NCBI GenBank assembly: GCA_046760705.1 | Contig: JBHIER010000084.1 | Span: forward strand, 1-9,842 | Reading direction: 5' to 3' | DNA length: 9,842 bases | From: JBHIER01 sp046760705 [NCBI: bacterium] | GTDB taxonomy: Bacteria > JBHIER01 > G020348925 | In this document: piece by piece, positions 2,289 through 9,842 of the stretch | Numbering within the stretch: position 1 is the stretch's first letter | How the letters are laid out: every line of letters begins with the position of its first letter | Program-made: the position numbers and the translations under genes | Notes under the pieces: model-generated | The model's database searches: none | The model's input: the letters and a program-made list of their open reading frames with translations, nothing else | What the model was told of the DNA's origin: nothing

Positions 2289-4397
2289 GTGACCCGCGAA
2301 GGGAACTACCTCTGGTTCTCCGATCAAAATTACCATTACATCGGTAAGACGACCACCGGCGGGAGTCTGATGGCCGACTTCAACCCGAACGACAACACCA
2401 TCAAGGATCTGACCTGGGATGGTACAAACATTTGGACCATCAACACCTCGGGGACGATCAAAAAATTTAGCCCATCCGGTGCTCTCGTGGAGACCATCTC
2501 CGGCCTACTCACCGGAGGGTGGGGACTGACTTATGACGGCCAGTATCTCTGGGCTTCCGACCCGGGAGCGGACAAGATTTACCAAATATCCCTATCTGAG
2601 GACACCGCGCCACCTGGGCCACCATCTGTTGTGTGTGCTACGCACCCTATTGAGTCGGTTTGGTACAGCAATCCCGATCCGCTCTTTCATTGGACACCGC
2701 CGGCCGATCCTTCTGGCATCGCCGGCTACAGTTACCTTTTGGATACTGCTGCCGAGACGCTTCCTGATACCACCGTTGAGGGGACGGACACGACGGCCAC
2801 GTATCTCTCTCTCCAGGATGGGATATGGTACTTCCACTGTCGGGCCCAGGATGGGGCCGGCAACTGGGGGGAGGCAAGCCACTACAAGATTCGAATCGAT
2901 ACAACCCCCCCGGTAGAGGGGACGATCGTCATCGCCGGTGGTGCCGATACCACCAGTTCGTTGACGGTCAGCTTGAGCGATTTGGGCGCGGAAGACGAAC
3001 ATTCCGGCATGGGTCAGGGGGCAGCCATGAGGTTCTCAAACGATGGGGTCTCCTGGTCAGAAGCGGAACCGTTTGCCAGCTCTCGGACGGATTGGGACCT
3101 GTCCCAGTACGGCGGGAACCATTCTTCAGGCCTGAAGAAGGTCTATGTGGTCTTCAGCGATGTGGCCGGCAACTGGTCGGCCCTCTTCTTCGACGAGATC
3201 GTGTACAGTGCGCCGCTCCGCGTGGTGACCGAATCGCTGGCTGGTGGCACGGTGGGATTTGCCTATGCAGAGACCCTTTCGGCCGCCGGTGGCTGGGCGC
3301 CGTACGAATGGGAGTTGGTGACCGGAGCATTACCACCCGGTCTGGCCCTGGATGCGAGCGGGGTCATCTCCGGCGATCCGGATTCCGCCGGGACATTTCC
3401 CTTCACGGTGAGGGTGACCGATTCCAATATGAGCTCTGCTACGAGGGATCTGTCCATCACCATCCTGGTTGAAGCCGTGAAGGGTGATGTGAACGGCGAC
3501 GGGGTTATCAACGTCCTCGATCTGGTTACCGTTGTTCGATATATCCTCGGTTTGGAGGAGTTTAGCCCCCTTCAACTGTGGGCCGCCGACGTCCAGCCCG
3601 ACGGGGCCATCAATGTTCTGGACGCGCTCGGCATCGTGAACATCATCCTCGGGATGCCGCCTGCCGCCAGGCCAACTTCACCCGGGCGCGCCGTTGTCAG
3701 TATCAAGAGAGACTCAGGTTCCTCAGGGGAACGAGGCTCCTTTTCCATAACCTTAGAGAGTCAGGTCCCGGTGGCCGGTATCCAACTCCATATCCGGGTG
3801 ACCCAGGGATCGGAGCTGGCAGGTCCGCCGCAGCTTGCGCCGTGGAGCCAGTCCCTGCAATTCGCTCACAGGGCAGAAGGGGATCGTATCACCCTCCTCA
3901 TGTACAGTCTGTCGAACGAGACAATCCCCCCCTCAGAGTCCGCACCTATCGTGACCCTCCACCTTGGAGAAGGAGCCGCACCTGTCCAAATTGAAAATGC
4001 GATCTTAGCGGACTCAGACGGTGAAGCCATTCCGGTGGAGATCAAAGCGGAGGCCCTTTCTTCGCAGGCAGGTTGGGCACTTCTTCAAAACTATCCCAAT
4101 CCCTTCAACCCAGTGACCAGTGTTCAGTATTCAGTGATCAGCGCTCAGGCCCCTACAACCAGTAGCCAGTATTCAATAGACAGTGAACAGTCCCTGCCCC
4201 GCATCACCCTCAAGATTTACAACATCTTGGGGGAGGAGGTGCGGACGCTGGTGAATGAGCCTAAGAGACCAGGATATTACACTGTCACCTGGGATGGTCG
4301 CGACCGGGCAGGCGCACCGCTGCCCAGCGGCGTCTATTTCTGCCGGATGGAAGCAGACGGTAGATCGCAGACGGTCCAAATGACGCTGACTAAATAG
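2289..4397 (+). CDS. Modular secreted protein: propeller, Ig-like, dockerin, cohesin-like and sorting-tail domains
   Basis: This is the remainder of the gene begun at 1914, in the same frame. The GTG at 2289 has no clear ribosome binding site and lies inside a blade, so it is unlikely to be a true start. Domains by residue of this part: 1-101 propeller blades (LTWDGTNIW, LTYDGQYLW); about 105-208 an Ig/fibronectin-like module (DGIWYFHCRAQDGAGNWGE); 209-307 a second Ig-like module (VYVVFSDVAGNWS); 308-395 a putative-Ig module (TGALPPGLALDASGVISG); 396-457 a dockerin with two calcium loops (GDVNGDGVIN and DVQPDGAIN); about 465-590 a cohesin-like beta domain (VAGIQLHIRV, PIVTLHLGEG); 597-702 a sorting tail (NYPNPFNP, LKIYNILGEEVRTLV, SGVYF). 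Such tails belong to type IX-like export or surface attachment in FCB-group bacteria. A cell-surface or extracellular role in adhesion or polymer binding is inferred; no catalytic domain is seen. Confidence 0.88.
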   Translation: MTREGNYLWFSDQNYHYIGKTTTGGSLMADFNPNDNTIKDLTWDGTNIWTINTSGTIKKFSPSGALVETISGLLTGGWGLTYDGQYLWASDPGADKIYQISLSEDTAPPGPPSVVCATHPIESVWYSNPDPLFHWTPPADPSGIAGYSYLLDTAAETLPDTTVEGTDTTATYLSLQDGIWYFHCRAQDGAGNWGEASHYKIRIDTTPPVEGTIVIAGGADTTSSLTVSLSDLGAEDEHSGMGQGAAMRFSNDGVSWSEAEPFASSRTDWDLSQYGGNHSSGLKKVYVVFSDVAGNWSALFFDEIVYSAPLRVVTESLAGGTVGFAYAETLSAAGGWAPYEWELVTGALPPGLALDASGVISGDPDSAGTFPFTVRVTDSNMSSATRDLSITILVEAVKGDVNGDGVINVLDLVTVVRYILGLEEFSPLQLWAADVQPDGAINVLDALGIVNIILGMPPAARPTSPGRAVVSIKRDSGSSGERGSFSITLESQVPVAGIQLHIRVTQGSELAGPPQLAPWSQSLQFAHRAEGDRITLLMYSLSNETIPPSESAPIVTLHLGEGAAPVQIENAILADSDGEAIPVEIKAEALSSQAGWALLQNYPNPFNPVTSVQYSVISAQAPTTSSQYSIDSEQSLPRITLKIYNILGEEVRTLVNEPKRPGYYTVTWDGRDRAGAPLPSGVYFCRMEADGRSQTVQMTLTK
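4111..4194 (+). repeat. Twelve in-phase CAGTNNN heptamers inside the coding sequence
   Basis: The stretch divides exactly into twelve 7-base units: CAGTGAC, CAGTGTT, CAGTATT, CAGTGAT, CAGCGCT, CAGGCCC, CTACAAC, CAGTAGC, CAGTATT, CAATAGA, CAGTGAA and CAGTCCC. Most begin CAGT; the middle ones are worn. The array is 84 bases, a multiple of three, so the frame is kept. It encodes a Ser/Gln-rich linker (SVQYSVISAQ, then SSQYSIDSEQS) between the YPNPFNP motif and the LKIYN strand of the sorting tail, where related tails normally have only a few residues. Confidence 0.85.
4209..4297 (+). repeat. Sorting-tail DNA repeat, copy 1
   Basis: This 89-base segment encodes LKIYNILGEEVRTLV through TVTWDG. 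It aligns without gaps to the reverse complement of 9704-9792; by eye about 73 of 89 bases match. Both copies follow directly on a CAGTNNN heptamer array. The two genes therefore share recent or gene-converted sorting-tail DNA in inverted orientation. Confidence 0.8.
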
Positions 4398-9603: not shown

Positions 9604-9842
9604 CTACTTCATGACAACCATGCGCTTGGTATCTGTGAAGTCACCTGCAGTCATCCTATAGAAATATACACCGCTGGGAACTTCGTCTCCTCTCTCATTT
9701 CTTCCATCCCACGTTACCGTATAGTATCCAGGCTCCTTGACCTCGTCCACCAGCGTCCTCACCTCCTGCCCCAAGATGTTGTAAATCTTGAGGATGACGT
9801 GGGGTGCGGACTGACCACTGACCACTGGCAACTGAAAACTGA
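9604..9842 (-). CDS. Sorting-tail domain of a secreted protein, 3' end only (cut by window edge)
   Basis: The frame is open to the right edge, so only the last 78 or so residues are present. They read LKIYNILGQEVRTLVDE, GYYTVTWDGRNERGDEV, PSGVYFYRM and end TKRMVVMK before TAG (9606-9604), an almost consensus FlgD-like or type IX-type C-terminal sorting tail. A YPNPFNP motif would be expected just outside the window. The segment before LKIYN is encoded by CAGTNNN heptamers, as in the gene at 2289-4397. The apparent TTG start at 9831 is not real, because the frame continues upstream through in-frame codons to the edge. The protein is likely secreted or surface-attached; its main function is outside the window. 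A terminator lies at 9537-9571. Confidence 0.9.
   Translation of the reverse strand, partial: SFQLPVVSGQSAPHVILKIYNILGQEVRTLVDEVKEPGYYTVTWDGRNERGDEVPSGVYFYRMTAGDFTDTKRMVVMK
9704..9792 (-). repeat. Sorting-tail DNA repeat, copy 2
   Basis: This 89-base partner of 4209-4297 lies in inverted orientation and encodes LKIYNILGQEVRTLV to TVTWDG. The gap-free match and the shared heptamer array next to it suggest common descent of the whole 3' cassette rather than convergence at protein level only. Confidence 0.8.
9807..9841 (-). repeat. CAGTNNN heptamer array at the right edge
   Basis: Read on the minus strand, five units are in register: CAGTTTT, CAGTTGC, CAGTGGT, CAGTGGT and CAGTCCG. The array probably continues past the window. 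It lies in the coding frame just before the LKIYN strand, the same place as the array at 4111-4194. Confidence 0.8.

Follow-up and report, generated by a model that had tools for sequence, protein, structure and literature searches.

Heptamer arrays in two sorting-tail genes

The DNA analyzed here is a stretch of 9,842 nt from the bacterium JBHIER01 sp046760705 (assembly GCA_046760705.1, contig JBHIER010000084.1), referred to in its entirety as the window, in which arrays of a degenerate heptamer, CAGTNNN, lie inside two genes, A and B. Both arrays occupy the same linker of a C-terminal sorting-tail domain (Table 1). An earlier note on this DNA, made from the sequence alone, had described twelve in-phase units in array A and five in array B. 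The latter count is confirmed on the minus strand and in the matching linker, while the former is slightly generous, as twelve slots are present of which eight are exact. Slots 1 to 6 of array A read CAGTGAC CAGTGTT CAGTATT CAGTGAT CAGCGCT CAGGCCC and slots 7 to 12 read CTACAAC CAGTAGC CAGTATT CAATAGA CAGTGAA CAGTCCC, so that three cores carry one mismatch (CAGC, CAGG and CAAT) and one, CTAC, is decayed. Arrays were counted as four consecutive exact cores; this pattern was detected nowhere else in the window, and its maximum in 200 dinucleotide shuffles of the window was 0. Several in-phase heptamers sharing a common core, the hallmark of the CAGTNNN/TAACTGA-type class, are thus present in both arrays, which are coding, have mixed spacers and are situated close to the 3' ends of their genes.

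The arrays are not simply the by-product of the peptide they encode. With the peptide held fixed, array A contains 5 in-phase pairs vs 0.19 expected, a value reached in 0 of 5000 random draws of synonymous codons, and array B contains 3 vs 0.05 expected, reached in 4 of 5000 draws. As synonymous randomization does not reproduce them, the arrays are a feature of the DNA and more than a peptide. The earlier note considered a 7-bp period unable to encode a simple peptide repeat; in fact three units equal seven codons and specify an identical 7-residue cycle, S-x-Q-x-x-V-x, in every frame, and the peptide derived from array A is periodic by 7 residues (S-V-Q-Y-S-V-I ... S-S-Q-Y-S-I-D). Its view that protein-level selection is not the obvious cause holds with respect to the codons, which carry a DNA-level signal, but only in part, as the peptide can pass as a native strand.

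Tail A scores above the gathering thresholds of FlgD_ig (45.8 bits, threshold 27) and CHU_C (27.4 bits, threshold 27), and narrowly misses TIGR04183, the type A sorting domain of the type IX secretion system (T9SS), with 21.2 bits and E 2e-4, below the cut-off of 23. The AlphaFold model of tail A (with 71 tails) has a predicted local distance difference test score (pLDDT) of 82.9. In this model the first units of array A form strand 1 (residues 12-18) and the remainder a low-confidence loop leading to strand 2 (residues 40-46). Comparison of the model with the PDB placed FlgD at the top, followed by T9SS PorZ, PorU and C-terminal domains, none at E<=0.001.

The two arrays are better not treated as independent. 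The final CAGT is located 17 nt upstream of CTCAAGATTTACAAC in both genes, and because this 3' junction is homologous arrays A and B cannot be counted separately. Over the 15 codons after the array, tails A and B have the same codon at 13 of 14 synonymously comparable positions, vs 9 of 23 in the remainder of the tail (p = 0.0016, Fisher test); the limit of 15 codons was chosen with the alignment already seen. We read the shared tract as probably reflecting a common ancestor or gene conversion and the window's two arrays as one event. The possibility, raised by the earlier note, that one duplication lies behind both genes may hold for A and B themselves.

Table 1. Positions of the sorting-tail genes, arrays and shared tracts in the window
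Feature	Positions	Strand	Description
Gene A	2289..4397	+	702 aa open frame; He_PIG, dockerin type I, FlgD_ig/CHU_C tail
Sorting-tail domain A	4083..4394	+	YPNPFNP ... LKIYNILGEEV ... SGVYF
Array A	4111..4194	+	12 heptamer slots, 8 exact CAGTNNN; encodes most of PVTSVQYSVISAQAPTTSSQYSIDSEQS
Array A span in tail			strand 1 and strand 1-2 loop; AlphaFold strands E12-18 and E40-46, low-confidence loop between
Tract right after array A	4209..4253	+	DNA almost identical to tail B (LKIYNILGEEVRTLV)
Sorting-tail domain B	9607..9840	-	visible part SFQLPVVSGQSAPHVILKIYN ... MVVMK; stop 9604-9606
Array B	9807..9841	-	5/5 exact CAGTNNN units, matching linker; gene B cut by window edge
Corresponding tract after array B	9748..9792	-	

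Arrays in the tail linkers of other genomes

Arrays of this kind recur in tail linkers elsewhere. Among 24 genomes containing both arrays and tails, 28 of the 74 arrays read are located in tail linkers, all on the sense strand (counted by place; 26 of 72 when identical 65-bp copies are merged). These derive from five genomes, with 15/17 arrays in tail linkers in G409, 6/6 in G467, 3/5 in G321, 2/4 in G389 and 2/3 in G432, and in these five every array found by the pattern was read. Arrays are therefore truly enriched in the tail linkers of certain genomes, whereas other genomes show no such enrichment.

A codon signal is also evident in G409. In G409 tails unselected for arrays, 13 in-phase CAGTNNNCAGT pairs were observed vs 1.48 expected, the maximum in 500 synonymous draws being 5. 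In the 17 G409 tails having an ISW or INW linker, the codons needed for CAGT are strongly over-used relative to background: ATC in 10/17 (0.11), AGT in 14/16 (0.22), GGC in 11/12 (0.13) and a second AGT in 10/11 (0.22). Many flanking codons are at background level; the exceptions are AGC on the upstream side and CTT and GTG on the downstream side. The final Q is encoded by CAA in 15/16, which does not carry the array on. As these tails are paralogous, shared descent explains part of the codon bias.

Other repeats at the same position

Linker length was examined in 109 tails from 20 genomes, using a tail query that begins at LKIYN and excludes the linker, which therefore cannot bias the ranking. 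The linker consists of 15 aa in 86 tails, 16 in 2, 17-18 in none and 19-32 in 21. The adjacent LxIYN-to-GxY segment, by comparison, is 21 aa in 86 of 90 measurable tails; spacing from W to SGVY was unmeasurable in 19/109 tails, with 2/90 outliers, and the offset to SGVYF was later measured in 106/109. On visual inspection, 17 of these 21 long linkers look like unrelated repeats, namely GTAGAGAC-type and GTAGGGTC palindromes, CCCTCTCC-type hairpins, GGATTCCCGCTTTCGCGGGAA and heptamers, and the other four (L376, L388, L415 and L430) are of plain or unclear sequence. Two linker heptamers, TCAGARG (L402, G228) and AATTCAG (L354, G224), each add exactly 7 residues. Long linkers have a mean hairpin z-score of -2.6 and short ones of -0.18, calculated against mononucleotide shuffles. 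In a sample of 52 G409 tails, 14 linkers exceed 16 aa and 6 of these are the GTCATTCCG hairpin.

Dispersed copies of the linker inserts

Two palindromes and one heptamer were traced genome-wide, allowing up to 3 mismatches in palindrome copies. In G409, GTCATTCCGARCGRAGYGAGGAATCT is present in 15 copies, of which 7 are in tail linkers (one in a tail without the NPFNP part), 5 are intergenic, two of these having the same flanks, 2 are in a loop of another protein (FEIQRS-VIPSGARNL-SWE) and 1 is in a further gene. The GTAGAGACTCGCCATGGCGAGTCTCTAC/GTAGAGAC palindrome is found in 10 copies in G220 and G208 and in none in G436; 2 copies are in the linker, 5 in a second tail loop before SGVYF, 2 are intergenic and 1 is in a transposase-like open reading frame (ORF). 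Within 200 kb of G208, all six genic GTAGAGAC cores were assigned by eye to tails, with 4 more being intergenic. The inserts of G220 and G208, as distinct from the window array, display the palindromic structure and the dispersal expected of repetitive extragenic palindromic (REP) sequences of the GTAG type, to which they may belong, association with a transposase being a further trait of that class. In 200 kb of G228, three genic matches to the GTAGAGAC core were obtained, all of them outside tails and without a palindrome visible by eye. The heptamer TCAGARG occurs in G228 in 2 tail linkers, 3 other ORFs and intergenic places.

The transposase-like ORF (L637:1219-1650) carries its GTAGAGAC-type palindrome in frame and resembles a REP-associated tyrosine transposase (RAYT). 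Its scores, 26.5 bits against NF047646 REP_Tyr_transpos (cut-off 80) and 14.7 against Y1_Tnp (cut-off 23), are both below cut-off. Judging from this resemblance, the ORF is a candidate mobilizer of GTAGAGAC-type palindromes.

Occurrence of CAGTNNN arrays across genomes

Four-unit CAGTNNN arrays were detected in 10/50 genomes from many phyla, in 18/124 genomes from the phylum of a locus titled Cloacimonadota and in 116/296 genomes from the phylum of G007, a locus of which is titled Bacteroidetes. In the 178 units immediately flanking the perfect runs of 89 arrays, the letter expected at each CAGT position is still present in 39-53%, the commonest letter at spacer positions accounting for 30-35%. 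The reversed pattern TGACNNN was not taken as a null because it also catches heptamer arrays. Of the rows read for arrays in G001, G082 and G083, 59/67 are outside ORFs and the other 8 are in ORFs of 101-136 aa. Many intergenic 4-5-unit arrays in G082 and G083 (L265-L292) mostly end in CAGTCGC followed by TGCGCTGG-like sequence, and seem to belong to a longer dispersed element. Core-plus-variable-spacer heptamers extend beyond CAGT, the neighbouring arrays at L298 and L299 of G001 being built on different cores, such as that of GAACNNN, with free spacers. Among viral contigs, 120 array loci included 1 tail, which was without an array, and the combined array-plus-tail pattern gave 3 hits, none of which matched a tail. 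Another coding site at which arrays recur may exist at L485 and L487, from two genomes, where an orthologous-looking protein (FPSYEIMMDELRDYRFYAEDMLHPNQ) carries antisense CAGTNNN arrays in one and the same loop. At L505 (G373), an array is situated 3 nt past the stop of a sorting-tail gene.

A putative permissive site for non-coding repeats

We consider it probable, at roughly 0.6, that non-coding repeats become coding at a permissive site in the FlgD-Ig-like tail, the hairpin joining strands 1 and 2, and subsequently spread with the tails. The linker would correspond to this hairpin of a C-terminal secretion tail. In some tail-rich bacteria of the Fibrobacteres-Chlorobi-Bacteroidetes (FCB) type, presumably including the window organism, short dispersed and otherwise mostly intergenic repeats, comprising CAGTNNN, other heptamer arrays and GTAG-type and other REP-like palindromes, may land or expand in the linker. 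Inserts would persist, perhaps neutrally, when their net length preserves the frame, and would thereby become coding. CAGTNNN arrays appear suited to this fate because 7 bp is no multiple of 3 and the same 7-residue cycle is obtained from all frames. A sense-strand stop is expected only if CAG-TNN continues AA, AG or GA, or if a whole-codon spacer is TAA, TAG or TGA, and the S-x-Q-x-x-V-x cycle would alternate as the native strand (ISYQLPVSS) does. Tails would then multiply and swap segments among secreted proteins with the array carried along, the window genes probably being one such pair. The proposal of the earlier note that the array is an element tolerated in a loop is supported by the location of the linker between two predicted strands, the several unrelated repeat types found there and the concentration of arrays in 5 of 24 genomes. 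A broader version, which we entertain tentatively, is that this hairpin is a general conversion site turning unrelated mobile or expanding non-coding repeats into protein, with heptamers favoured as their frame-indifferent, beta-strand-like cycle could replace the native strand, the tail repertoire of these organisms being partly rewritten again and again from junk DNA.

A number of observations weigh against a permissive hairpin colonized by repeats. In the remaining 19 of the 24 genomes, 14 of which supplied a single array each, 0/39 arrays are in tails (including 0/13 in G413, 0/4 in G251 and 0/4 in G293), and none of 60 array loci from two phylum surveys is in a tail (64 intergenic and 11 genic rows, some repeated). 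The enrichment at tails proposed by the earlier note consequently stands for five genomes and is rejected as a general rule. The majority of tail arrays keep the canonical 15-residue linker, and insertion is therefore not visible there; the linker of window gene A exceeds the canonical length by 17 aa, or 51 bp, which is no multiple of 7. Outside G409, 105 tails of the other 19 genomes contain 3 in-phase pairs vs 0.46 expected, a number also reached in 500 draws. G409 arrays largely belong to one paralogous tail subfamily, the array label changing 9 times on a tree of poor resolution, and they include identical copies; the 15 arrays therefore do not represent 15 events. Similarly, five of the six G208 tail palindromes are near-identical copies. 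No transposase was linked to the heptamers. Finally, the 20 genomes used for linker length were for the most part chosen from the top-scoring matches to a query carrying a long linker, so that the 19% share of long linkers is no population estimate.

The main rival to insertion is growth from native codons, in which the strand T-V-I-S-Y-Q-L-P-V-S-S, encoded for example by ATC AGT TAT CAG TTA CCA GTA AGC AGT, already contains four CAGTNNN units, slippage lengthened some arrays such as window A and no element ever arrived. The tail arrays of G467, G389 and G432, which are canonical in length and canonical-looking in peptide, speak for this, and the small codon excess outside G409 and the existence of ISYQ-type peptides written with other codons (L335, L336) agree with it. 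We nevertheless regard it as unlikely. When the amino acids are held fixed, a large excess of in-phase pairs is left in both G409 and the window, and the G409 peptide ISWQSPVGSWQT deviates from the usual pattern, repeating SWQ every 7 residues with codons otherwise rare in these genes where CAGT needs them, a point weakened by the deviation of some flanking codons and the paralogy of the tails. In addition, unrelated palindromes occupy the same site. Insertion rather than native-codon growth is thus the explanation that we favour.

Two further explanations appear improbable. The earlier note suggested a recombination site that promotes exchange of sorting tails between secreted-protein genes. 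In its favour, A and B are almost identical over 45 bp after the array and then diverge, although at a border defined post hoc. Linker types and tails also re-assort in G409, where some near-identical tails have different linkers, as in L527 and L528, which share 92% identity over 165 nt of tail DNA while containing different linker repeats. However, in a tree of 67 G409 tails, itself weakly resolved, linker type changes 17 times vs a shuffled mean of 30.3 and minimum of 26 (100 shuffles); being below every shuffle, this value indicates that linker types track descent, though not strictly. Neither a recombinase nor a fixed crossover sequence was seen at the arrays, several unrelated repeats occur at the same spot and multi-copy tails recombine by homology in any case. 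Ordinary homologous recombination or gene conversion is enough to account for linker-tail re-assortment, including the tract shared by A and B, and a dedicated site need not be invoked. Somewhat less probable again is a phase switch, in which gain or loss of units in numbers other than three would put the tail out of frame and turn secretion off and on. Array A precedes the tail and its twelve slots are a multiple of three; in neuO, which contains heptanucleotide repeats, the full-length product is likewise read at repeat numbers divisible by 3 (PMC13001214). Yet the units of the window array are unequal (8/12 exact cores, mixed spacers), which disfavours slippage, and the array-bearing linkers read in G409 do not vary, all being of 15 residues; the slippage-prone element also envisaged by the earlier note finds no support in either observation. 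Chance or assembly artefact we consider extremely improbable: a frame change near 2270-2289 breaks gene A, so that the sequence may contain errors, but the absence of the pattern from all shuffles and its recurrence in five other genomes speak against an accidental origin.

Relation to known repeats

CAGTNNN-type heptamer arrays, intragenic REPs, in-frame palindromes and in-frame heptamers are already known. Heptameric simple sequence repeats are over-represented generally in bacteria (PMC4692102). TAACTGA heptamers of Beggiatoaceae, cyanobacteria and Bacteroidetes are mostly intergenic in the main genome studied (MacGregor 2015, PMC4679880). Their reverse complement, TCAGTTA, is a CAGTNNN heptamer and in reading frames encodes SVISYQL, close to the tail strand VISYQLP. 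They differ in being located mostly just upstream of start codons, with intragenic ones mostly near protein ends, and sorting tails are absent from the parts of that paper seen (PMC4679880). GGGNATC heptamers of Xanthomonas and Nostoc likewise form degenerate, mostly intergenic arrays but have a G-rich, quadruplex-type core, intragenic copies being a minority (11% and 7% in two Xanthomonas; PMC4692102).

Among palindromes, GTAG/CGTC-tagged REPs associated with RAYTs are a close counterpart: GTAG-ended palindromes resemble the GTAGAGAC and GTAGGGTC linker inserts and intragenic copies are known and argued to occupy linkers or loops (PMC3733652). Those copies are found in diverse genes, usually at different sites, whereas in the present tails a single loop of one domain family accommodates several types of repeat. 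Rickettsia palindromic elements are also non-coding repeats fused in frame into proteins, but are ~150 bp in length and enter unrelated metabolic genes with no single recurrent site (review PMC10969869). The neuO gene of an E. coli K1 prophage resembles the window genes in its coding heptanucleotide repeats, full length in multiples of three, and differs in having a single unit, AAGACTC, in the 5' region and in being phase variable (PMC13001214). Among the top matches listed from the open-access literature, we noticed no paper describing repeats in sorting-tail loops.

Two neglected classes of bacterial DNA, degenerate heptamer arrays and REP-like palindromes, are here connected with a single defined site in a large secreted-protein family, so that what becomes of intergenic repeats can be tested by counting. 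Some genomes also provide a natural experiment on secretion-tag tolerance, with one loop carrying many repeat-derived variants. For annotators, repeat-coded linker peptides such as VETRHGASL, FVIPSGARNL and ISWQSPVGS need not be conserved protein motifs.

Neighbouring sequences in the window

The likely 5' part of gene A is located at 1914-2270 in another frame, with a signal-peptide-like start and a weak DUF6923 match. The protein seemingly resumes at ~2289 beside a GGGGGG run, consistent with a pseudogene, a sequencing error or a frameshift. The closest relative of the window's GlnA is that of L001 (genome G001), at 80% identity; the other window proteins have no match on the 12.6-kb contig of L001, and no sorting tail scores above the cut-off in G001. 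An IS66-type transposase fragment is present at 876-1268 (PF03050, E 1.2e-7), and a further short heptamer run, AAAGTGC x 2.4, at 30-46.

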